DNA of 64,000 bases, taken from Dehalogenimonas sp. THU2. GTDB lineage: Bacteria; Chloroflexota; Dehalococcoidia; Dehalococcoidales; Dehalococcoidaceae. The position numbers were made by a program, and so were the translations under genes. Positions 30,307 to 42,080 of the stretch are shown here, in pieces; within the stretch, counting starts at the first letter, position 1; every line of letters begins with the position of its first letter. The notes under the pieces are model-generated. The model saw nothing but the letters and a program-made list of their open reading frames with translations, made no database searches and had not been told where the DNA came from. The stretch is from positions 62,001 to 126,000 of the forward strand of contig NZ_JBDLLU010000001.1 in assembly GCF_039749495.1 (NCBI RefSeq), read 5' to 3'.

Positions 30307-31164
30307 TTAAGTCAAACTAACAGGCGTGGCGCCGGCGTCCGTTTCCACCCGAACCAGGCTCCTGTAGGCCCTACGCAGACGGGTGGTTACCGGGCCGATG
30401 TTTTTGTCACTGACGGACATCCCGTCGATAACCGTGAGCGGCATGATCTCGATCAGACTAGAAGAGATGAAAACCTCATCGGCCTCAAGCAGTTCGGCTG
30501 GCGACAACCGCCCCTCGATCACCTCAATGCCGAGCCGGGCGGCCAGTTCCAGTACCGCGCTTCGGGTGATGCCCGGCAGGATGCCGCTGTCGAGGCCGGG
30601 AGTCTTTAAAATTCCACCCTTAACGGTGAACAGGTTAGCGCGGTTGGTCTCTGTAACGTCGCCCCGTTCGTTCAGGATGATGGCTTCGGCGACGCCCTGC
30701 CGCTGCGCCTCAGTACGGGCCAGCGAATTCTCCAGTTGATTGAGCGTTTTGTAACGGCAAAGTGGGGAACCGGTATGCCGCCTGACGGTTGAGGTGATAG
30801 CGGCCAAACCAAGGCGATATTCCTCTTCCGCCGGTGGGCGATAATGTTCCACGGTGATCACCGTGGTAGATTCACCCGCCTGACCGGATGTGACGGTAAG
30901 ACGAACCCGGGCATCGGCCAGATGGCTTTCGGTCAGCGTCCGCAGAGCCGCAGCTTCGGCTTCGCCACGGTCGATCGACACACCGAGGAAGGCCGCACCG
31001 GCGTAAAGGCGGTCCAAGTGCCGGTCCAGGCGAAACAACCGGTCGTCGTAACCGCGCATAGTCTCGAACACGCCGTAACCCAGGCGAAAACCGGCGTCCG
31101 CGACATGGATTTTCGCCTCGACCAAGGGTGTAATGATACCGTTGACATAAGCTAGTTCGAGCAA
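30307..31164 (-). CDS. pabC: Aminodeoxychorismate lyase / class IV aminotransferase
   Basis: PabC turns 4-amino-4-deoxychorismate into p-aminobenzoate and pyruvate, using pyridoxal phosphate. The 285 residues show fold-type IV features: FRLGYGVFETMRGYDDRLFRLDRHLDRL, then SPLCRYKTLNQLENSLARTEA with the PLP lysine, EAIILNERGDVTETNRANLF, and GILPGITRSAVLELA. D-amino-acid or branched-chain aminotransferases are related, but the pabB-pabA context supports PabC. Translation starts at TTG 31164, overlapping pabA by 13 bases, with GAGG upstream. Confidence 0.85.
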   Translation of the reverse strand: MLELAYVNGIITPLVEAKIHVADAGFRLGYGVFETMRGYDDRLFRLDRHLDRLYAGAAFLGVSIDRGEAEAAALRTLTESHLADARVRLTVTSGQAGESTTVITVEHYRPPAEEEYRLGLAAITSTVRRHTGSPLCRYKTLNQLENSLARTEAQRQGVAEAIILNERGDVTETNRANLFTVKGGILKTPGLDSGILPGITRSAVLELAARLGIEVIEGRLSPAELLEADEVFISSSLIEIMPLTVIDGMSVSDKNIGPVTTRLRRAYRSLVRVETDAGATPVSLT

Positions 31165-31763
31165 GACAAGACCTCAGATTGGACCGCCTCTCGCAGTGAC
31201 AGAAAATTGCGGATGATATCGTGTCCGGCGCCAGTCATGATGGACTCCGGGTGGAACTGCACCCCCTCGATGACGAAGCGCCGGTGCCGGATCCCCATGA
31301 TGACACCATCGGCGGTGGCGCTGACCTCAATGCAGTCCGGCAGGGAGTCCGGGTCGATGACCAGCGAGTGGTAGCGCCCGCCTTCTATGGGGCTGTGCAG
31401 GCCGGCGAAGATGGTCCGGCCGTCATGGCTTACCGGAGAACTCTTGCCGTGGGTCGGCTGCGCCGCGGCAGTGATGCGCCCGCCGAAGACCTGGCCGATG
31501 CACTGGTGCCCCAGGCAGACGCCCATGATGGGGATCTTGCCGGCGAAGCGGCGGATAACGGCGTTCGAGATACCGGCGTCGTCCGGTGTCCCCGGACCCG
31601 GGGAGATGATCAGGTGTCCGGGGGCGATTTCGGCGATGCGTTTCAGGGTGATCCGGTCATTGCGGAAGACCAGCGGGGTAAAGCCCATTTCACCGACGTA
31701 CTGCGCCAGGTTGTAGACGAAGGAGTCGTAGTTGTCGATGATGATGACCGGTTTATCGTTCAT
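31152..31763 (-). CDS. pabA: Aminodeoxychorismate/anthranilate synthase glutamine amidotransferase
   Basis: This subunit releases ammonia from glutamine for chorismate amination. The 203 residues contain IIDNYDSFVYNLAQYVGEMG, HLIISPGPGTPDDAG, the nucleophile in GVCLGHQCIGQVFGG and the HPES motif in FHPESIMT. PabA and TrpG are not separable by sequence, and one protein may serve both enzymes. Its position between pabB and pabC supports the PABA role. The ORF reaches 31793, but ATG 31763 begins the conserved part. It overlaps the end of pabB by a few bases upstream. Confidence 0.88.
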   Translation of the reverse strand: MNDKPVIIIDNYDSFVYNLAQYVGEMGFTPLVFRNDRITLKRIAEIAPGHLIISPGPGTPDDAGISNAVIRRFAGKIPIMGVCLGHQCIGQVFGGRITAAAQPTHGKSSPVSHDGRTIFAGLHSPIEGGRYHSLVIDPDSLPDCIEVSATADGVIMGIRHRRFVIEGVQFHPESIMTGAGHDIIRNFLSLREAVQSEVLSCSN

Positions 31764-31770
31764 GCTGACC

Positions 31771-33273
31771 TTACGGAGGGGCGGGCGACTCATGAGTCGC
31801 CCCTACACCCAATTTTCCACCCCCCAAAGCTTGGAAGAGCGCCCGCGCTTTGTGTAGGGTTTCCTGGTATTCCGCTTCCGGATCGGAGTCGAAGGTGACG
31901 GCGCCGCCGACTTGAAACCAGGTTTTCCTGCCCCTGGCGACGATGGTGCGGATGGCGATGTTCAGGTCGAGGTCGCCGTTGAAGCCGAGCCAACCGATGG
32001 CCCCGGTGTAGATGCCGCGACGCACCGGTTCCAGTTCGTCGATGATTTCCATCGACCGCACCTTGGGGGCGCCGGTGATGGAACCGCCGGGAAAGGCGGC
32101 TTTCAGCAGGTCGATCCGGTCTTTACCTTCGGCCAGTTCGCCGGTGACCGTCGAGGTCAGGTGAAAAACGGTGGGGAAAGTTTCCAGCGCGGCCAGTTCG
32201 GTCACTTTCACCGAACCATAGCGGCAGACCCGGCCGAGGTCGTTGCGTTCAAGGTCAACGATCATCATGTTCTCGGCGCGGTCTTTTTCACTGGCTATGA
32301 GTTCGGCGGCAAGGCGGTGGTCTTCTTCCGGCGTGCCGCCGCGTTTACGGGTGCCCTTGATAGGCCGGGTCTCGACGGCGATGCCATCGAGCTTGAGAAA
32401 GCGCTCCGGGGAGGCGGAAATAATCGAAAACTCCCCGCAATTGAGAAAGGCGGCGAAGGGGGCGGGATTGATGCGTCGCAAGCGCTGGTACAGTTCAGGC
32501 GGCGCGAATTTCAATTCCACCTCGAAACGCTGAGACAGGTTGACCTCGAAGATATCCCCGGCGATGATGTATTGTCTGGCACGTTCCACCGCCGCCATAT
32601 ATGATTTCCTGGTGAAGTTGCTTTTCACGGCTGGCGGCGCTTCAACCTCGGACGGCACCTCCATCGCAGAATCGACTGGACGGGTCGCGGACATCCGCTG
32701 CCTGAATTCCCCGATTCGGTGGACGGCGCGATCTATCCTGGCCGTTTCATCAAGCGCGGGAAACCCTGTACTGACGATATAACCGCGGTTTTCAAGATGA
32801 TCGTACGCGAAGATGACATCGTAAAAACCGAAACGGAACTCGGAAAGCTTCAGGTCATCCGTCGCGTTCCGGGGCAGTTTCTCCAGGTGGCGTCCGGCGT
32901 CGTAGGAAATGTAACCGACGGCGCCGCCGGTGAAGGGCATTCGTGCATCGTTCCGGTCGAGCTTGTATTCATCGAGCAGACGTCCCAGCGTGTCAAACGG
33001 ATCGTCGGAGCAGTTCTCTACGGCATCGCTGCGGGTGATGGTGATGCGCCGCCCGCGGCTGGTGAAGGTAAGAAAAGGCTGGCTGCCGGCGAAGGAGTAC
33101 CGGCCTGATCTGCCTCCGGCCATGCCGCTGTCGAGAAAGAAAACACCGGCTGATCTGCCTCCGGCCATGCCGCTGTCGAGAAAGAAAACACCGGGCTCGT
33201 CCCGCAGGGCATGGAAAATGTCAGCGGGGGTGAGGGTGGTTGGCCATTCCTCGATTATCGGAAGTTTGCTCAT
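31771..33273 (-). CDS. pabB: Aminodeoxychorismate synthase component I
   Basis: PabB aminates chorismate on the way to p-aminobenzoate and folate. Of the 500 residues, the C-terminal 260 carry the chorismate-binding core: ETRPIKGTRKRGGTPEEDHR, RNDLGRVCRYGSVKV and GSITGAPKVRSMEIID. Lys in PIKGT is the PabB mark, where TrpE has Ala. Near residue 30 a 15-residue unit GVFFLDSGMAGGRSA is repeated exactly at the DNA level, just before the conserved GRYSF. The last residues (ATHESPAPP) are encoded by a palindromic repeat. The leading promoter looks like TTGACG with 17 bases to TAGACC, about seven bases before the ATG. Confidence 0.9.
   Translation of the reverse strand: MSKLPIIEEWPTTLTPADIFHALRDEPGVFFLDSGMAGGRSAGVFFLDSGMAGGRSGRYSFAGSQPFLTFTSRGRRITITRSDAVENCSDDPFDTLGRLLDEYKLDRNDARMPFTGGAVGYISYDAGRHLEKLPRNATDDLKLSEFRFGFYDVIFAYDHLENRGYIVSTGFPALDETARIDRAVHRIGEFRQRMSATRPVDSAMEVPSEVEAPPAVKSNFTRKSYMAAVERARQYIIAGDIFEVNLSQRFEVELKFAPPELYQRLRRINPAPFAAFLNCGEFSIISASPERFLKLDGIAVETRPIKGTRKRGGTPEEDHRLAAELIASEKDRAENMMIVDLERNDLGRVCRYGSVKVTELAALETFPTVFHLTSTVTGELAEGKDRIDLLKAAFPGGSITGAPKVRSMEIIDELEPVRRGIYTGAIGWLGFNGDLDLNIAIRTIVARGRKTWFQVGGAVTFDSDPEAEYQETLHKARALFQALGGGKLGVGATHESPAPP
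31783..31806. repeat. Palindromic repeat copy E, inside the pabB 3' end
   Basis: GGGCGACTCATGAGTCGCCC followed by CTACA matches the other repeats in flank but has its own core. It lies inside pabB and encodes the protein's last residues, with the stop a few bases further on. Confidence 0.75.
33105..33194 (-). repeat. Exact 45-bp tandem duplication in pabB
   Basis: Two identical 45-base units (33105-33149 and 33150-33194) lie head to tail and in frame. Each encodes GVFFLDSGMAGGRS plus one residue that differs only through the next codon context. No other sequence separates them. Confidence 0.97.
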
Positions 33274-33454: not shown

Positions 33455-34333
33455 TTATTCCTGGCGGCGATTGGCGAGGTGGTAAAGTTTCTGATAGGAG
33501 GCGCCGAAATCAGGGTTGGCGGCTTCCAGTTTGGATTTGAGGGCGCTCATACGGCTGACGAACTCTTCCCGGCGGCCTTCTTTGACCATCTCCGCCCAGT
33601 CGCGCGCGCGGTCGCTGAAGAGGGCTTCCGTTTCCGGCAGAGAGGGCAGGTTGAGTTGCAGCGACGCGTAGAGCGACGGGTCTTCCGATAACACGCTCTC
33701 GACCAGCGTCAGGAGGGCCTTATAGGTGATGCCGCCGGCGCCGCTCATTTCGGTCAATTTGTCGAGACTGACCAGGGCATCGGCGGTGACGATGGCGATG
33801 AAGTGCGCCAGCCCCAGGGAGATGGACATCAGCCGGTCATGCTCCTCCGGCGAGGTGATGCGGACGCGGGAGCCGCGAGCGGTGAGCCACTCCGATACCC
33901 TGGCGGCTAACGCGGCCTCTGCGTCATCGGTCGGGGTCAGGATCACGTTCTGACCCTTGAGGCTCTCGGCACCGGGGCCGAAGACCGGATGGATGCCGAG
34001 GATTTGGGCTCCCTTGAAATGGCGGTGCATCGCCGCCACCGGCATCACCTTGACCGAGGTCAGATCGAATATCTTGTGATGAGGCTGTACGAACGGGGCA
34101 AGGTCGCGGCAGACCGTCTCGAAATTGTCCACCGGCACCGAGATGATAACGATATCGGCGTCGCTGATACTGCTCAGCCGGTCGGTGGCAGCCACGCCGA
34201 GTTCCGTGGCGACAGCGGCCAGCTTGTCCTTGTCGCGGCCGATGACGGTCACCTGATGACCTTCTTTTTTCAGGAGGCGGGCGAACCAGGCGCCCATCTT
34301 GCCGTAACCGCCGATGATGGCTGTCTTTTTCAA
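33455..34333 (-). CDS. tyrA: Prephenate dehydrogenase
   Basis: TyrA oxidatively decarboxylates prephenate to 4-hydroxyphenylpyruvate, the tyrosine branch. The 292-residue protein starts with the NAD-binding AIIGGYGKMGAWFARLLKK and carries DIVIISVPVDNFETV, IFDLTSVK, GIHPVFGPG and the LAHFIAIVTADAL helix region. There is no chorismate mutase or ACT domain. Translation is judged to begin at TTG 34333, one base after the pheA stop; the longer frame to 34420 runs inside pheA. It is the last gene of the aromatic operon. Arogenate as substrate cannot be excluded. Confidence 0.88.
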   Translation of the reverse strand: MKKTAIIGGYGKMGAWFARLLKKEGHQVTVIGRDKDKLAAVATELGVAATDRLSSISDADIVIISVPVDNFETVCRDLAPFVQPHHKIFDLTSVKVMPVAAMHRHFKGAQILGIHPVFGPGAESLKGQNVILTPTDDAEAALAARVSEWLTARGSRVRITSPEEHDRLMSISLGLAHFIAIVTADALVSLDKLTEMSGAGGITYKALLTLVESVLSEDPSLYASLQLNLPSLPETEALFSDRARDWAEMVKEGRREEFVSRMSALKSKLEAANPDFGASYQKLYHLANRRQE

Positions 34334-34334
34334 T

Positions 34335-35402
34335 CTATTTCGCCTTCGGGTACGAGCCCAGGATCTTGATGAACAAAACATGCTCTTCCAGAGCAGGCAG
34401 CGCCGCCCGGAAATTCTCATCCTGCCGGTGACCCTCGAAATCGAGGTAGAAGTTGTACTCCCAGGCCTTCTTGCGGGTGGGGCGGCTCTCGATCTTGGTC
34501 AGGTTGATCTTATGCTCGGCCAGGATGCGCAGGAATTCATACAGCGCGCCGGGCCGGTGCTTCACCGCGAATACCAGCGAGGTCTTGTCATCGCCGGAGG
34601 GTGGGGCGTCCTTTCGCCCGATGGCGAAGAAACGGGTGAAGTTGTTGGGGTTGTCCTGGATATCCCGAGCCAGGATTTTCATGCCGTAGATGACGGCGGC
34701 GCGTTCCGAGGCGATGGCGGCGCCGTCCATGATGCATTTTTCTTTAATGAGTTTGACCGAGCCGGCGGTATCGTAGGTGGGGATGAGTTCGAAGCCCATC
34801 TGGCGCAGGAAATGGCCGCATTGCCCCAGCGCCTGGGGGTGGGAATAGACGCGCCGGATGCTGTCCAGGGTGGCGTCCGGGTTGCCGATGAGGCAGTGGT
34901 TGACCCGCAGATGCAGCTCTCCGGAGACCATCAGGCTGGACTCCAGCATCAGGTCGTAAGAACGGGAGATGCTGCCCTCGATGGAGTTCTCCATGGGGAT
35001 GATGCCAAACTGGACGGTGCCGCTCTCCACTTCCTTAAAGACGCCTTCCAGCGACTCGCAGGCTTTCACCGCGGCGCGGGAGCCGAAGTATTGAAATGCG
35101 GCCTGTTCCGAATAGGCGCCGGCCTCGCCCTGGAAGGCGACGCTGCGCGCCTGGCGCTGGCGGGCGAGTTTGATGATCGAGCGGTAGAGCTCTGTCACCT
35201 CGTCGGCGGTCATGCCCCGGGCGGCGGCGGCGCCGGTCACGTGCTCGATGACCAACCGTTCACGCCCAAGATCCTGCGGCGGCACTTCCCCAGCCGCCTT
35301 TTCCCGGCCGATGGCTTCCGCGATCGACAGGCGCTCGGCTAGGAGTTCGACGATGTTATCGTCGAGTTCATCGACGCGGCGGCGCAGTTCTTCCAGGCTC
35401 AT
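34335..35402 (-). CDS. pheA: Chorismate mutase / prephenate dehydratase (P-protein)
   Basis: This bifunctional enzyme makes phenylpyruvate from chorismate. Its 355 residues consist of an AroQ-type mutase helix bundle ([20 protein letters not shown], residues about 1-85), then the dehydratase domain ([49 protein letters not shown]). The C-terminal ACT domain is about 285-350 ([18 protein letters not shown] and [17 protein letters not shown]). In E. coli the ACT domain gives phenylalanine feedback. It overlaps aroC by four bases and is followed by tyrA one base later. Confidence 0.95.
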
Positions 35403-36496
35403 TTAAGCACTCTTCCTATCTTACCGGCGCGGATGGCCAGATCGGCCAGCACGACGGCGGTCATCGATTCAGCCACCGCGGCGGCGCGGGGCACGATGCA
35501 GGTATCGTGCCGGCCGCCGACGGCGATGGTGGTGGGTTCGTTAGTGGATAAATCCACGCTACGCTGTAATTTGGCGATGGAGGGCGTCGGCTTCACCGCC
35601 AGTCGGGCGACCAGCGGCATGCCGCTGCTGATGCCGCCTAAAATGCCGCCGGCGTTGTTGGTGGTGGTGACGATCCGGCCGTCCATGACATCGTAAGCGT
35701 CGTTGTCCTCCGACCCTCTCATCCGGGCGGCGTTGAATCCGGCGCCGAAATCCACGCCCTTGACGGCCGGTATGGCGAAATAGGCCTTGGCGAGGCAGCC
35801 TTCCAGGGTGTCGAATACCGGCTCGCCGACACCCACCGGCAGGCCTTCCACCCGCGCCTCGATAATGCCGCCCACCGAATCCCCGTCGCGACCCGCCTCT
35901 TTAATGGCTTCTATCATCCTGGCGGCTGCCGAGGCGTCGGCGCAGGAGACCTCGTTTTCAACCATCGCTGCCCGGATATCGGCGACGCTTGGGGGAGGAT
36001 TGCTTTTCACTCCGCCGATCTCGACGGTATGGGCCACTACTTCCACGCCGATGGTCGAAAGCAGTTTTTTTGCGACCGCGCCGGCCATGACGAAGCCGGC
36101 GGTGATGCGGCCGGAAAACCGGCCGGAGCCGCGCCAGTCGTGAAACCCGCCGTATTTTTCAAAGGCGGTGAAATCGGCGTGGCCGGGCCGGATGAGGTCC
36201 TTGACCTTCTCGTATTCCGAGGAGTCGATATTGCGGTTCCAGATAGCCAGGCAGATGGGCGCGCCGGTGGTGCGGTCGTTAAAGACCCCGGAGAAAATCT
36301 CCACGCGGTCTTCCTCTTTACGGGCGGTAGCCAGGGGGCGGCTGCGGCCGCTCTTACGCTTGTCGGCTTCGCGCTGGATGTCTTCGACAAAGAGCGGCAG
36401 GCCGGCGGGGCAGCCGTCGATAACGATGCCGACGCAGTCGCCGTGGCTCTCACCGAAGCTGGTAATACGAAAAATCTCTCCCAGGGAGTTATTCAC
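35399..36496 (-). CDS. aroC: Chorismate synthase
   Basis: AroC converts EPSP to chorismate with reduced FMN. The 365 residues hold the three classical signatures: [19 protein letters not shown] near the start, then [12 protein letters not shown]-like [20 protein letters not shown], and [14 protein letters not shown] near 255 with the later [16 protein letters not shown] region. It overlaps aroA (8 bases) and pheA (4 bases), consistent with a tight operon. Confidence 0.97.
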
Positions 36497-37751
36497 TTAT
36501 GATCACCTTTCCGCCGGCGGTTTCAAAATCCTGCCAGAAGCCGGGATAGGTTTTGGCGACGCATCCGGCGCCTTCAATGACTGTGTCGCCGCAGGTTGCC
36601 GCCAGCATGGCGAAGGCCATGGCGATGCGGTGGTCGTCATGGCTGTCGATGACCGCGCCGCGCGGTGTCCCGCCGGTTACGGTCATCCGGCCAGCTTCCT
36701 CGACGACCTCTATACCCATGCGCTTCAGGTTGCCGGCTACCGCCGAAACACGGTCCGATTCTTTCAATCTGGCCCGTTCCAACCCAGTGATGGCGCTCTC
36801 GCCCTCAGCCACAGCGGCCAGGCAGGCCACGGTGGGGAGGAGATCGATGGCTTCATTGAGGTCGATCTCTACCGCCCGGAGCGGCGAGGGGCTGACGGTC
36901 ACCGAATCACCGGCGATATTCACTCCGGCGCCCATCCGGCGCAAGCAGTTTAACATGAAACGGTCGGCCTGAAAACTGTTCTCGTTAAGCCCGGTTACCG
37001 TCAAGCCGCCGGCGATGGCCCCCAGGCCGATGAAGTACGAGGCGCTGGACCAGTCACCTTCGACGGTGTAGTCCGCAGCCTGGTAAGCCTGGTGCTGGAC
37101 CCGGAATTCGGTGAGGTTACCGGCAGTCTCGACAACGATCCCGAAACGTCGCAAACAATAGACCGTCATCCGGAGGTAGTCCCTCGATTCCGCCGGGGTG
37201 GTCAGCCGAACGTTCAACCCGTCTGGGGCGAGGGGCGCGGCCAGCAACAGGCCGGAAATGAACTGCGAACTGATGTTGCCGGGCAACGATACCACGCCGG
37301 TCTGGAACCGGCTGCCGCCGCCGTGGATATCAAGGCAGGTATCGGTCAGTTCCGACTCTACGCTTAACTGACTGAATACCTCCAGTATCGGGGTCATCGG
37401 CCGCCGCGCCAGGCCGGGGTCGAAGGTGATGCGGCTCTCGCCATCCAGCATGGCGCACACCGGCGCCAGGAAACGCAGCGTGGCCGCCGACTGGCGGCAG
37501 TTCAAATTCTGGCGCGGCGGTTTCAGATGCCCGCCGGAGACGGTCCAGACGCCGGGCTGGCGCTCGATGACGGCGCCGAGCTGCGCCAGAACCTCCGCGG
37601 CGGCTTCGGTGTCGTCGGCGACCAGGGGGTTGGATATGCGGCTCACCCCCTCCGCCAATGCCGCAGCGAAAAGGGCGCGAATGGTGTAGCTCTTGGAGGG
37701 CGGGGCGGCGATGGCACCGCTGACGACGCTTTTACTGATGCTGGCTTTCAT
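36489..37751 (-). CDS. aroA: 3-phosphoshikimate 1-carboxyvinyltransferase (EPSP synthase)
   Basis: EPSP synthase joins PEP to shikimate-3-phosphate. The 420 residues have [19 protein letters not shown] near the N-terminus, [18 protein letters not shown] (equivalent of the LFLGNAGTAMR region), [39 protein letters not shown] and [16 protein letters not shown]. The PEP-binding loop reads SAATLRF rather than GNAGTAMRP, which places it with the class that differs from plant-type enzymes. It overlaps both aroK and aroC. Confidence 0.95.
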
Positions 37752-38262
37752 CTATCCCCAGTTTTTCAATAATCTCATTGATAACGGCGGCGAAGGGGCG
37801 CCCTCCGGTCTTGACCGTGATATCCGCCGCCGCCTCGTAAAGCGGCCTCCGCGCGGTATGAAGATCCGCTATGATCCGGTCACGGTCCGGATGTTCCAGC
37901 AATGGCCGGTTCCGGCTGTTGGAGAGACGGTCCTGGAGGCTGGCGGTATCGGTTTCCAGGTAAACGATATGCGACGAGTTTCTCAGGCGGTCGATGTTGA
38001 CCGGCCTCTGTACTACGCCGCCGCCGCAGGCGATGACGGCGCCGCGGGCGGATACGCTTACCTTATTAATGATCTCCTCTTCCAAATCCCGGAAGCCCGG
38101 TTCTCCCAGCTCGGCGAATATCTGAGCGACACTTTTACCGGCCTGCTGTTCGATAAGCCGGTCGATTTCCACAAATTCATAGCCCAGCCGCCGGGCCATT
38201 CTTTTACCAGCGCTGGATTTGCCGGAGCCCATGAAGCCGATGAGAGCGATATTGCGTTTCAT
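37732..38262 (-). CDS. aroK: Shikimate kinase
   Basis: AroK phosphorylates shikimate at the 3-hydroxyl. The 176-residue protein has a P-loop GFMGSGKSS at 9-17, EIDRLIEQQAGKSVAQIFAE, FRDLEEEII and the GGGVVQRPVNID Walker B-like shikimate site, then RNRPLLEH (LID). The frame continues to 38325, but ATG 38262 gives the usual start MKRNIALIG. It overlaps aroE by four bases and aroA by 20. Confidence 0.95.
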   Translation of the reverse strand: MKRNIALIGFMGSGKSSAGKRMARRLGYEFVEIDRLIEQQAGKSVAQIFAELGEPGFRDLEEEIINKVSVSARGAVIACGGGVVQRPVNIDRLRNSSHIVYLETDTASLQDRLSNSRNRPLLEHPDRDRIIADLHTARRPLYEAAADITVKTGGRPFAAVINEIIEKLGIDESQHQ

Positions 38263-39092
38263 GGGAGCAACGCCTCGGCGGCCGCCTGCCGCATGACCTG
38301 CCGCGGCGCGGGAATACCGGTCCAAAGCTCAAATGCCAGCGCGCCCTGCTCGACTAGCATCTCCAGCCCGCCGACGACGGTGCAGCCCGCCGCTTCGGCC
38401 TCCGCCAGGAGGCGGGTCCGCCGGGGGCGGTAAACGGTGTCGATGACTGTCATGCCAGGTCGCAAAAAGGTGGCGGGCAGCGGCGTCGAACCATCGTCAG
38501 GGCTCATGCCGACGCTGGTGGCGTTGACCACCAGGGAGACACCCTCAAGCGCCGCGTGGAAGCCGTTTTCGGTCATTTCAAATACGCTGGAGCCGGTTTC
38601 ACCGGCCAGTTTCCGGGCGGCGGCCGCCGTGCGATTGACGATGGCTACCGAAGCCCCGGCATCCCCCAGGGCGAATACGGCCGCGCGGGCCACCCCGCCG
38701 GCACCGAGGACGACCGCCTTCTTGCCTTCCGGTTCGAAAGAACCGCCTTTCAGCGCGGCAAGAAAACCCGAGGCATCGGTGTTGTAGCCGATGAGCCGGC
38801 CGTTCTGGTTCATAATGGTATTGACGGCGCCGATGCGGTTTGCCTGGGAATTGACGCTGTCGAGGAGAGGCAGTACCGCCGTCTTATGCGGGATAGTGAC
38901 GTTGGCGCCAGCGAGTCCCAAGCCTCTGATACCTTCGATCGCCTGGGCTAGACCGGCAACCGGCACCCGGAAGGCCAGGTAAATGTAATTCAGCCCCAGC
39001 GCCTTGAACGCGGCGTCGTGCATCGCCGGGGACACCGAGTGTCCTACCGGGTCGCCGATGAGGGCAATGACTCTGGTATCGGCGGTGATCAT
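38259..39092 (-). CDS. aroE: Shikimate 5-dehydrogenase
   Basis: AroE reduces 3-dehydroshikimate with NADPH. The 277-residue protein shows ALIGDPVGHSVSPAMHDAAF, NVTIPHKTAVLPLLD with the catalytic Lys, GAVNTIM, GYNTDASGFLAAL, the nucleotide loop VVLGAGGVARAAVFAL, and VVNATSVGM. ATG 39092 overlaps the aroD stop by four bases; an upstream extension of 52 residues in the ORF is inside aroD and is not used. Confidence 0.95.
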   Translation of the reverse strand: MITADTRVIALIGDPVGHSVSPAMHDAAFKALGLNYIYLAFRVPVAGLAQAIEGIRGLGLAGANVTIPHKTAVLPLLDSVNSQANRIGAVNTIMNQNGRLIGYNTDASGFLAALKGGSFEPEGKKAVVLGAGGVARAAVFALGDAGASVAIVNRTAAAARKLAGETGSSVFEMTENGFHAALEGVSLVVNATSVGMSPDDGSTPLPATFLRPGMTVIDTVYRPRRTRLLAEAEAAGCTVVGGLEMLVEQGALAFELWTGIPAPRQVMRQAAAEALLP

Positions 39093-39742
39093 CGTTCGAT
39101 CATCCGGTAGAGTTCGGCCATTTGGGCCACCGTCAATTGCCCAGGGGCCGACGGACGGCCGGTCTGCAGGGCGGCATAGGTGAATGCCGCTCCGGCGAGT
39201 GGCGCCATCACCCGGCTCAATAGTCCGGTCTCGCCCATGCCGAAGCAAATAAGGTTATGATCGCTGAACTCCCCGTACAGGCGGAGTAGCCGGAGATTGT
39301 CGTCGAATATGGTGGCGGTGGTCACCAACTTGCATATATCGGCCCCGGCAGCCAGTTCCTTTTTAATAATGTCGATCAGCATCCCGGAAGCAGGGGTGCC
39401 GGTAAAATCATGGTGAGAGACCAGGCAGCGGGCTCTTTTTTTGACCAGTTCAACCATCTTTTCCAGGTTGGGGGTGGCCAGTTCCAGGTCGATGATCGAG
39501 GCGCCCATGTCGAGCGCTCTCAACAGTTCCTGCTTGCGTTTGGCCTCCGTTCCCCGCCAGGCCCCGCCCTCGGTGGCGAGGCGGTTGCAGGCCATCCATG
39601 GCTTGGTCAGCTTCCGGGCCAACCCGGCCCAGGACTCGCCGATAAGGTCGATCCTGACCTCATAGAGATCGGCTAGCGGCGCGGCGGCGGCGATCGCCGC
39701 CTCATCGGACGAGGTTATGACGGCGCAGATGGCAGGGTTCAT
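39089..39742 (-). CDS. aroD: 3-dehydroquinate dehydratase, type I
   Basis: AroD forms 3-dehydroshikimate by a Schiff-base mechanism. The 217 residues carry the type I features YEVRIDLIGE, LVSHHDFTGTPASGML (His pair) and KLVTTATIFDDNLRLL with the Schiff-base Lys; FGMGETGLLSRVMAPL is near the end. It is slightly shorter than the usual 225-250. It is translationally coupled to aroB and aroE through ATGA overlaps. Confidence 0.95.
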   Translation of the reverse strand: MNPAICAVITSSDEAAIAAAAPLADLYEVRIDLIGESWAGLARKLTKPWMACNRLATEGGAWRGTEAKRKQELLRALDMGASIIDLELATPNLEKMVELVKKRARCLVSHHDFTGTPASGMLIDIIKKELAAGADICKLVTTATIFDDNLRLLRLYGEFSDHNLICFGMGETGLLSRVMAPLAGAAFTYAALQTGRPSAPGQLTVAQMAELYRMIER

Positions 39743-40815
39743 GCCGACAGCACTTCAGCGACGATCTGAGGGTCGATATCGGCTCTGGTGACGACGCTGC
39801 CGATGCCGGTGGGCAGGATGAACTTCATTCGGCCTTCGGTGACTTTTTTATCATGCTGCATGGCGGCGATGACGGCGGCGGGGCGGGTGACCGGTATCGA
39901 CACCGGCAGACCGGCGGCGGTGATGAGCCGTAAAATGCGTTCCATATCGGCGCCGTTCAGCAGCTCAAGCCGGTTGGCCAGCCGGGCGGCCATGGCCATA
40001 CCGAGGGCGACCGCGGTGCCGTGGGGGATCCTGAAATCCGAGACGCACTCGATGGCATGGCCGTAGGTATGACCGAAATTGAGGATGTGGCGGAGTCCCT
40101 GGTCGCGTTCGTCTTTTTCAACCACACGGGCTTTTACCTCCGCAGCGCGGTGCACGGCGTAGGTCAACGCCCCGGGGTCTTTATCCAGCAGTACCGGCGT
40201 GCTCTCTTCCAGGAAAGCGAAAAGCTCCGTATCCTCGATGACGGCGCACTTGATGACTTCGGCCAGCCCGTTTTTGATCTCTTTGGGGGGCAACGAGCCC
40301 AAGGCGGCGGTGTCGCTCACTACCATCACCGGTTGGTAGAAGGTTCCGGCCATGTTCTTGAGCCTGCCGGTGTTCACCGCGACCTTGCCGCCGATGCTGG
40401 AGTCCACCTGGGCCAGCAGGGTGGTGGGTACCTGGACGAAGGGCAACCCGCGCTGATAGGTGGCGGCCACGAAGCCGGCCAGGTCGCCGATGACGCCGCC
40501 GCCGAGGGCCAGGATGGGGGTGTTCCGCTCGACGCGCCGGCGGGACAGACTCTCATAAAGCTTGCCGGCGACGGTCAGCGACTTGTAAGCCTCGCCGTCG
40601 GGTATGGCGATCATCTCCACATCGCGGTCCGCCGTTTTAAGGGCTTCTACCAGGCCGGCGCCGTAGAGGCGGGCGACGGTGCGGTTGGTGATGACGACGA
40701 ACCGCCGGCCCAGACCGTGGTGTTCCAGCATTTCGGGTAATTTTCCCAGAAGGCCTTCACCCATATAGACGGGATAACCGCGTTCGCCAAGGTTTACGTT
40801 TATCTGGTAAGTCAT
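39739..40815 (-). CDS. aroB: 3-dehydroquinate synthase
   Basis: AroB cyclises DAHP to 3-dehydroquinate using NAD and a divalent metal. The 358 residues contain VVITNRTVARLYG, IPDGEAYKSL, ILALGGGVIGDLAGFVAATY, VQVPTTLLAQVDSSIGGKVAVN, GLAEVIKCAVIED and the metal-ligand stretch LRHILNFGHTYGHAIE. It follows aroF after four bases and overlaps aroD. Confidence 0.97.
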   Translation of the reverse strand: MTYQINVNLGERGYPVYMGEGLLGKLPEMLEHHGLGRRFVVITNRTVARLYGAGLVEALKTADRDVEMIAIPDGEAYKSLTVAGKLYESLSRRRVERNTPILALGGGVIGDLAGFVAATYQRGLPFVQVPTTLLAQVDSSIGGKVAVNTGRLKNMAGTFYQPVMVVSDTAALGSLPPKEIKNGLAEVIKCAVIEDTELFAFLEESTPVLLDKDPGALTYAVHRAAEVKARVVEKDERDQGLRHILNFGHTYGHAIECVSDFRIPHGTAVALGMAMAARLANRLELLNGADMERILRLITAAGLPVSIPVTRPAAVIAAMQHDKKVTEGRMKFILPTGIGSVVTRADIDPQIVAEVLSA

Positions 40816-40819
40816 AGCC

Positions 40820-41869
40820 CTATTTTACGGCAATTTGGCGCAACTGTCTTGCCACGGTGATGATCTCTTTAAGTTCCGCGGGACTGATCATCTGGGAGGC
40901 GTCCACCAAGGCTTCTTCCGGGCGGTCGTGGACCTCTATCATCAGGCCGGAAGCGCCGGCGGCGATAGAAGCCAGGCTCATCGAACGGATGAGATCCCGG
41001 CGGCCGGTGGCGTGGCTGGGGTCGACGATGATGGGTAGAAAGGTCTCCTTTTGGACGACCGGCACCGCCGCCAGGTCCAGGAGGTACCGGGTGAAGTTTT
41101 TGCCCTTGCCCACCGGCACGATGCCGCGCTCGCACAGGATGATGTCCTTGTTGCCCTCGGCGGCGATGTACTCGGCGAAGCACAAGAACTCCTCCACCGA
41201 GGCGCCGAAGTGACGCTTGAACATGACGGGGAGGTTTTTACGGGCGGCGGCCTGGAGCAGGTCCTGGTCGTACATATTGCGGGAGCCGATCTGGATGATA
41301 TCGACGAACTGGCTGACCAGCTCTACCTGGGCCTCGCCGCGGACCTCGGTCACCACCGGCATGCCGAAAGCCTCACCGGCTTCCTTGAGCCAGGTCAGGG
41401 CTTCCACGGCCTCGTCATTACCGGCCGAACCCAGCCCCTGAAAGGAATGGACGCTGGAGCGCGGCTTGAAGACACCGCCGCGGAGCACATGGGCACCGGC
41501 GGCCTTCACCTGTTCGGCGATGCGAAACAACGCTTCCCGGCTTTCCACGGCGCAGGGGCCGGCGATGAACAGCGGCTCTTCTCCACCGATTTCGACCGGG
41601 CCGATCTTGATTATATGCGTGCTGGTCTCGCCGTAAGCGCTGGAGTATTCCCTGTTGATCAGTTTATAGGGCGCCTCTATCATTCTAGCCTCCTTTACTC
41701 CGGGAAGGGCCGCCAGGTGGGCAAAATCCACCCGGCGTTCGTCACCGACCAGGCCCAGCACGGTGAGATGCTGGCCGCGGGAGACATCCGTGCGCAGGCC
41801 TGCCCTGGCCACTTCGTCGATAACGTGTTGAATCTGCTCCGGGGTGGCGTCCTTTTTCATGATGATCAT
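40820..41869 (-). CDS. aroF: 3-deoxy-7-phosphoheptulonate (DAHP) synthase
   Basis: DAHP synthase commits PEP and erythrose-4-phosphate to aromatic synthesis. The 349-residue protein has an N-terminal ferredoxin-like regulatory domain (residues about 1-70, MIIMKKDATPEQIQHVIDEV) and a type I-beta TIM barrel with IAGPCAVESREALFRIAEQV, GGVFKPRSSVHSFQGLG, IGSRNMYDQDLLQ, VMFKRHFGASVEEFLCFAEY, CERGI and PIIVDPSHATGRRDLI. The regulatory domain in relatives binds Tyr or Phe. It is the first gene of the aro operon and lies behind the aromatic leader peptide and terminator described separately. The symbol could equally be aroG by convention. Confidence 0.95.
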   Translation of the reverse strand: MIIMKKDATPEQIQHVIDEVARAGLRTDVSRGQHLTVLGLVGDERRVDFAHLAALPGVKEARMIEAPYKLINREYSSAYGETSTHIIKIGPVEIGGEEPLFIAGPCAVESREALFRIAEQVKAAGAHVLRGGVFKPRSSVHSFQGLGSAGNDEAVEALTWLKEAGEAFGMPVVTEVRGEAQVELVSQFVDIIQIGSRNMYDQDLLQAAARKNLPVMFKRHFGASVEEFLCFAEYIAAEGNKDIILCERGIVPVGKGKNFTRYLLDLAAVPVVQKETFLPIIVDPSHATGRRDLIRSMSLASIAAGASGLMIEVHDRPEEALVDASQMISPAELKEIITVARQLRQIAVK

Positions 41870-41898: not shown

Positions 41899-41925
41899 TA
41901 AAAAATCCTCCCGGTTGGGAGGATT
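41899..41925 (-). terminator. Attenuator terminator before aroF
   Basis: On the minus strand AATCCTCCC-AACC-GGGAGGATT forms a nine-base-pair stem followed by TTTTTAG. It stands about 30 bases before the aroF start, behind a leader peptide ORF, so it is positioned to stop the operon message unless prevented. An alternative pairing partner GGGAGGTTC lies 54 bases upstream (plus-strand 41976-41984). Confidence 0.9.
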
Positions 41926-41960
41926 CACTGCCTGATGGTCTTTATGTGTTTTAGGTGCAC

Positions 41961-42044
41961 TTACGCAAAAACGCCGAACCTCCCTGATGTGCCTTTAAGG
42001 CACCAGGTAAAGTAATAATAGGCATTGAAGCTATGAGCAATCAT
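41961..42044 (-). CDS. Aromatic amino acid leader peptide
   Basis: A 27-codon ORF on the minus strand reads MIAHSFNAYYYFTWCLKG and then eight further residues including two more Phe, ending GVFA and TAA. Six aromatic residues out of the seven from Phe6 to Trp14 sense all three pathway products, with the triple Tyr, Phe and Trp codons (42020-42003) abutting a stem GTGCC TTAAA GGCAC. There is no Shine-Dalgarno; the promoter places transcription start almost at the ATG, so it may be read as a leaderless message. It is followed by the terminator and aroF. Its role in transcription attenuation is inference from arrangement. Confidence 0.85.
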   Translation of the reverse strand: MIAHSFNAYYYFTWCLKGTSGRFGVFA

Positions 42045-42051
42045 TGATAGA

Positions 42052-42080
42052 AGATTATCACGAGCGCCGGGGGATGTCAA
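42052..42080 (-). promoter_or_regulatory. Promoter of the aro operon
   Basis: On the minus strand TTGACA (plus positions 42075-42080) and TAATCT (42052-42057) are 17 bases apart, a strong sigma-70 match. An overlapping GATAAT is at 15 bases. Transcription should begin near 42045, at or one base before the leader peptide ATG. Confidence 0.8.

Follow-up and report, generated by a model that had tools for sequence, protein, structure and literature searches.

A predicted ribosome-mediated attenuator with Tyr, Phe and Trp codons in front of the shikimate operon of Dehalogenimonas sp. THU2, and probable copies of it in other operons of Dehalococcoidales

The region in front of aroF in Dehalogenimonas sp. 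THU2 is very probably a ribosome-mediated transcription attenuator of the trp/phe/his type, acting on the whole chorismate/Phe/Tyr operon. Ribosome stalling, termination and a response to starvation are what we infer from the sequence of this leader and of its homologs, together with their computed folds. Moreover, the same RNA architecture probably precedes other operons as well.

The leader and the nine-gene aro operon

The window, i.e., the whole stretch of 64,000 nucleotides that was analyzed, carries the leader on its minus strand, where the following features were located:

42075-42080, minus strand: -35 element TTGACA, read from the sequence
42052-42057, minus strand: -10 element TAATCT, extended by a TG at 42060-42059, with a 17-nt spacer to the -35
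41961-42044, minus strand: leader peptide ORF MIAHSFNAYYYFTWCLKGTSGRFGVFA, 27 codons plus TAA, its ATG 7 nt past the -10
42003-42020, minus strand: control codons Tyr9-Tyr10-Tyr11-Phe12-Thr13-Trp14, read from the sequence
41989-42003, minus strand: hairpin H1, GTGCC-TTAAA-GGCAC, the first G of which is also the third base of the Trp codon
41983-42007, minus strand: H1 extended by CCTG (42007-42004) with CAGG (41986-41983), from the sequence and a free-RNA fold
41976-41984, minus strand: 5' strand of the antiterminator, GGGAGGTTC, with the GGGAGG segment, pairing with 41926-41917
41917-41926, minus strand: 5' arm of the terminator (CCTCCC arm), common to terminator and antiterminator
41903-41926, minus strand: intrinsic terminator stem of 10 pairs including G-T, with a T-tract to about 41899

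A sequence-only reading of this DNA had described the promoter TTGACA-N17-TAATCT (42080-42052), the 27-codon ORF with Tyr-Tyr-Tyr-Phe-Thr-Trp at codons 9-14 (42044-41961), and GTGCC-TTAAA-GGCAC just past the Trp codon (42003-41989), and all three were recovered. The -35 element is kept in relatives though the -10 is weak, matching the consensus at three of six positions, and it is because of this weak match that the promoter scanner left it unflagged. The same reading had placed a nine-pair intrinsic terminator 30 nt before aroF: its presence and its distance to the aroF ATG at 41869 stand, while the stem has ten pairs when the G-T is counted. As only 7 nt separate the -10 and the ATG, the leader mRNA of the window is probably translated without a 5' leader (leaderless); this gap measures 7-8 nt in eight of eight members of the genus, and 5' ends are longer in many other families.

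The operon behind the leader consists of the following genes:

40820-41869, minus strand: aroF, DAHP synthase, first gene (NCBIfam NF006421, 436 bits)
39739-40815, minus strand: aroB (TIGR01357)
39089-39742, minus strand: aroD (TIGR01093, best match, just below cut-off)
38259-39248, minus strand: aroE (NF001319; the match begins at residue 54)
37732-38325, minus strand: aroK (NF010553, best match, below cut-off)
36489-37751, minus strand: aroA (TIGR01356)
35399-36496, minus strand: aroC (NF003793)
34335-35402, minus strand: pheA, chorismate mutase/prephenate dehydratase (NF008865)
33455-34420, minus strand: tyrA (NF006409)

The proposed order aroF-B-D-E-K-A-C-pheA-tyrA therefore rests on seven identities above the NCBIfam cut-off, with aroD and aroK assigned as best matches below it; the start of aroE as listed is probably too early. 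Located 181 nt past tyrA, a pabB-pabA-pabC-like set (30307-33273, minus strand) may share the transcript of the aro operon. Its pabB/trpE-like protein (31771-33273, minus strand) carries a tandem duplication near the N-terminus, GVFFLDSGMAGGRSAGVFFLDSGMAGGRS, which may reflect either a recent duplication event or faulty assembly. The window's genome has a second DAHP synthase locus; it lies outside any trp operon, and no lead came from it. Proteins 58-60% identical to the AroF of the window were also seen in Bathyarchaeota bins (L313 and L314), with transfer or a binning error as possible explanations.

Conservation of the leader and of its alternative helices

Homologs of the aroF protein were sought in 60 relatives, and the DNA upstream was inspected in both orientations. 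The conservation set comprised 45 orthologous aroF loci with at least 60% identity; about 30 families of the order are represented, and the relatives that bear taxon names are Dehalococcoidia/Dehalococcoidales. At 44 of these 45 loci, a short ORF with a dense aromatic run was found, and behind it came a hairpin, a G-rich stretch and a terminator; the exception (L020) is without a clear leader. Three further genomes, which belong to the class but not to the order (L070, L072 and L073), also have this arrangement. At L070, a Moco riboswitch (RF01055; 1036-1155, minus strand) was observed a few hundred bases upstream of the aro leader and opposite to it. TTGAC precedes all 44 leaders, in 42 of them as the full TTGACA, and nearly all homologous leaders have a terminator hairpin with a U-rich tail.

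Across the 44 control stretches, 169 Tyr, 97 Phe and 29 Trp codons were counted. Sensing of all three aromatic amino acids, as had been suggested from the window, is thus only partly general: Tyr and Phe control codons occur in every leader, and Trp codons in 29 of the 44. Both Tyr codons are used (TAT 88, TAC 81). Codon third-position bias in the leader ORFs is weak, a within-genus codon-position test being uninformative, and the peptide sequence varies widely between families, with the aromatic content alone kept. As checks, the sequence-only reading had asked whether relatives keep the aromatic runs and whether their stems show compensatory changes; both were found, the latter in the alternative helices, so that its refuting condition, a lack of such conservation, does not hold.

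Complementarity between leader and terminator arm, taken as the best 10-mer match, averaged about 20.75 in the 44 leaders, against 11.5 in dinucleotide-shuffled sequences (z 19). In gapless antiterminator pairs, 86.6% of the cells were paired, compared with 79.5% after shuffling, and cells with changes on both sides numbered 36 against 13.7; when the partner was slid by one column, pairing fell to 61-64%. Examples of compensatory pairs are GCTTGAGAGG with CCTCTTAAGC, GCCTGGGGGG with CCTCCCAGGC, and TGCCTGGGGG with CCCCCAGGCG. Together with the common 5' arm, this covariation and the excess over shuffles uphold the earlier claim that terminator and antiterminator are mutually exclusive. Relative to the ORF, the antiterminator motif uses all three frames (17, 14 and 13 loci), which indicates that it is constrained as RNA and not for the peptide. 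Moreover, it usually lies 18-25 nt before the stop codon, a near-constant spacing, so that a ribosome that has reached the stop would cover it.

The hairpin after the control codons likewise scored above dinucleotide-shuffled sequences (14.5 against 10.5, z 10, 44 leaders), and its stem is built from many pair types across relatives, as given by loop-anchored counts only, because MAFFT aligned the H1 arms with shifts. With its extension, H1 of the window looks like the classical 1:2 protector or pause hairpin, since CCTG:CAGG overlaps the start of the GGGAGG strand.

Copies in front of other operons and their codon content

A covariance model built from 24 aro leaders matched 125 of the 156 genomes of the order, with second copies in many of them. 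Across the phylum it matched 22 of 400 genomes, with a single weak match outside the class; this match (G424, L123, E 0.002) was rejected as chance, and it has no aromatic run. In the window's genome, the second copy (G000:C5:125518-125647, corresponding to L104:1019-1148) has the Phe-rich leader MFFGRFSYTFAFTKRTRVRLGWSNTN and precedes genes for an acyl-CoA ligase and for a livH-like permease; most members of the genus keep this copy, as does the sister genus. Other copies precede pheS-pheT, hisC-hisB, family III CoA-transferases, an aminotransferase and another DAHP synthase. The non-aro copies retain the antiterminator (21.2 against 10.1 in shuffled sequences, n=43), and the device is probably not limited to the aro operon, in which case it would form a regulon. 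At 60 pheS and hisC loci of the nearest relatives the covariance model gave no match, and no such leader was found; those copies are hence lineage-specific additions and not general ones.

Some further operons behind aromatic leaders deserve mention in their own right. At L119 and L126, an octopine/nopaline-dehydrogenase-like gene and a TrpX-like ABC protein were found, a candidate opine or aromatic amino acid uptake route. At L120, a CoA ligase is followed by an IorA-like 2-oxoacid:ferredoxin oxidoreductase, and this operon possibly serves to convert aryl acids into aromatic amino acids. As a separate observation, a single TGA breaks the pheS frame in two genomes that belong to one genus (L208 and L209).

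The codons in these leaders differ with the gene downstream. The pheST leaders hold 12 Phe and 2 Tyr codons and the ligase/Liv leaders 51 and 19, respectively, against 51 Phe and 105 Tyr in the aroF leaders (Fisher p 1.5e-4 and p 2e-8), and a His codon stands next to the Tyr run in 10 of 10 hisC-hisB leaders, against 3 of 25 aroF leaders (p 1.6e-6); all these p-values are optimistic, because leaders of related genomes are non-independent and the model favours aromatic codons. The bias of the aro-trained model is, however, towards aromatic codons, and not towards a shift from Tyr to Phe or an added His; the shifts run in the direction predicted by codon sensing. The hisC-hisB operons with His and Tyr/Phe leaders were those at L131, L134, L135, L136, L138, L139, L147, L149, L153 and L156 (e.g., MLIYTTAHYYYYYYYYAFTGR). 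As their leaders mix His with Tyr/Phe codons, it is suggested that HisC of these lineages also transaminates aromatic amino acids.

We therefore lean towards a Dehalococcoidales regulon, in which one attenuator RNA architecture would have been copied to many operons and reprogrammed by codons (Tyr/Phe/Trp for shikimate, Phe for pheS-pheT and acyl-CoA ligase-Liv, and His with Tyr and Phe for hisC-hisB), with leaderless ORFs in several genera and OR-gates over several aminoacyl-tRNAs.

That codon content tracks the downstream gene also argues against non-ribosomal control, i.e., a terminator governed by a metabolite aptamer, a T-box or an RNA-binding protein, next to which the ORF would be incidental. 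Chloroflexota do use other RNA switches: upstream of trpE, a T-box (RF00230) was found in L050 (2948-3229, minus strand), L051 and L052, the trpE of the window's genome included, and the T-box of trpE in Dehalococcoides was reported in 2008 (PMC2494555). A Trp leader peptide upstream of trpE, which had been a candidate, was ruled out, as T-boxes are there instead. Nevertheless, the aro leader matched none of the T-box or riboswitch families. The T-box model failed to match L001, L014, L011 and L070, all of them aro leaders, and Rfam gave no match in the aro leader at the gathering cut-off; the Phe leader family (RF01859) reached a weak 28.0 bits, against the 55 required, in the terminator region, and the Trp leader family (RF00513) had no match at E up to 10. 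The conserved upstream features are only the promoter, the aromatic codons, H1 and the antiterminator/terminator, and control of this kind is considered highly improbable. Since a T-box reads one tRNA and a leader peptide several, there is a simple possible reason for finding a leader peptide on the common pathway.

Even less probable is arrest of the ribosome by the leader peptide itself, in a TnaC- or Erm-like response to a free aromatic amino acid or another small molecule instead of to a lack of charged tRNA. The run is long and hydrophobic, and arrest of the nascent chain by Trp is known from TnaC (PMC8429421), but the sequence diverges between families with its aromatic content alone retained, and the geometry of such an arrest would activate the operon when the amino acid is abundant, which is the wrong sign for biosynthesis. 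Moreover, the Phe-rich pheST leaders and the His-containing hisC leaders fit codon sensing.

The proposed switch and its relation to known attenuators

We compared the folds available to the RNA as it exists before the 3' arm of the terminator is made, with the ribosome stalled at aromatic codons, at the stop codon or absent. In the window, the computed probability of the antiterminator core was 0.98-0.99 with a stalled ribosome, 0 with the ribosome at the stop and 0.08 without translation, the means of the 44 leaders being 0.79, 0.00 and 0.44, respectively. With a stalled ribosome the probability exceeded 0.5 in 38 of the 44 leaders, and at the stop it was zero in all 44; by this computation, untranslated RNA would form the antiterminator as well in roughly half of the relatives. 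At equilibrium, the terminator of the full-length leader wins in nearly all cases, a stalled ribosome included, and the states are told apart only by the folds that precede the terminator; the proposed switch would therefore have to act kinetically, like those of trp and other known attenuators. The same equilibrium result would favour a constitutive partial terminator past a small expressed peptide, with conservation due to promoter and terminator only, but this is the least probable reading of all, as GGGAGG and the terminator arm covary, all three frames are used for this segment, and the antiterminator match is very unlikely to arise by chance (z 19).

In the attenuator that we propose, RNA polymerase would transcribe the leader with a ribosome trailing on the short ORF. 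When charged tRNA-Tyr, tRNA-Phe or tRNA-Trp is scarce, the ribosome would stall in the Tyr-Tyr-Tyr-Phe-Thr-Trp run and disrupt or bypass H1, leaving GGGAGG free for the CCTCCC arm once this is made; with these segments paired, no terminator would form and aroF to tyrA would be transcribed. When all three charged tRNAs are plentiful, the ribosome would reach the stop about 20 nt downstream and cover GGGAGG, allowing the terminator to form. Without translation, H1 and its extension would sequester GGGAGG in the RNA of the window, and the operon would be off. The alternative pairing and stall-dependent switch put forward in the sequence-only reading are supported by this geometry in most relatives, and the starvation response is what the model would predict.

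Overall, the class of mechanism is already known from the trp, pheA, his and ilv leaders. Like the pheA, pheST and trp leaders of E. coli, the aro leader has a short ORF with tandem cognate codons, alternative antiterminator and terminator, and the first structural gene directly downstream; those leaders, however, serve a single amino acid and a terminal branch or a synthetase, while the aro leader has Tyr and Phe (and Trp) codons in front of the whole common pathway. In the ilvGMEDA and ilvB leaders, mixed branched-chain codons allow one leader to integrate several end products. They resemble the aro leader in that several end products of a shared pathway are read together, and differ from it in being branched-chain, not aromatic, and in belonging to different phyla.

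The nearest published case found is the uORFC-13-1 motif, a leader ORF with a terminator upstream of aroF in Acholeplasma, whose Phe codons were proposed as the sensed ones (PMC8632094). It is described there from 24 representatives with at least one Phe codon, from Acholeplasma and environmental sequences only, and this description, which gives no Tyr/Trp run and no multi-gene regulon, sets the motif apart from the aro leader. The T-box of trpE (PMC2494555) shares with the aro leader the organism group, the pathway area and the reading of tRNA charging, but it reads one tRNA directly, without a ribosome, and is absent from aroF. The His leaders of Firmicutes and proteobacteria have tandem His codons before his genes (PMC9413887); unlike these, the hisC-hisB leaders described here add a Tyr/Phe run to His.

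In agreement with the sequence-only reading, which regarded three-aromatic sensing for the whole shikimate pathway as undescribed in Chloroflexota, no aromatic leader of this phylum was found in the open literature, the attenuator survey of Lopatovskaya et al. 2010 (cited in PMC4833913) lying outside that scope. As far as this search shows, mixed-aromatic sensing for the whole shikimate operon, leaders combining His with aromatic codons and the Dehalococcoidales regulon would be new. If true, amino-acid leader-peptide attenuation would extend to Chloroflexota, and codon content would predict operon response. Functions open to testing could then be assigned to genes with poor annotation in organohalide-respiring Dehalococcoidia and in uncultured ones: HisC would be an aromatic aminotransferase, and the acyl-CoA ligase-Liv operon a system for Phe or aryl acids. 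Moreover, one leader would read all three aromatic end products for the entire common pathway, beside the single-tRNA T-box that trpE has in this genome, as an OR-gate over several aminoacyl-tRNAs beyond what a single T-box can provide.
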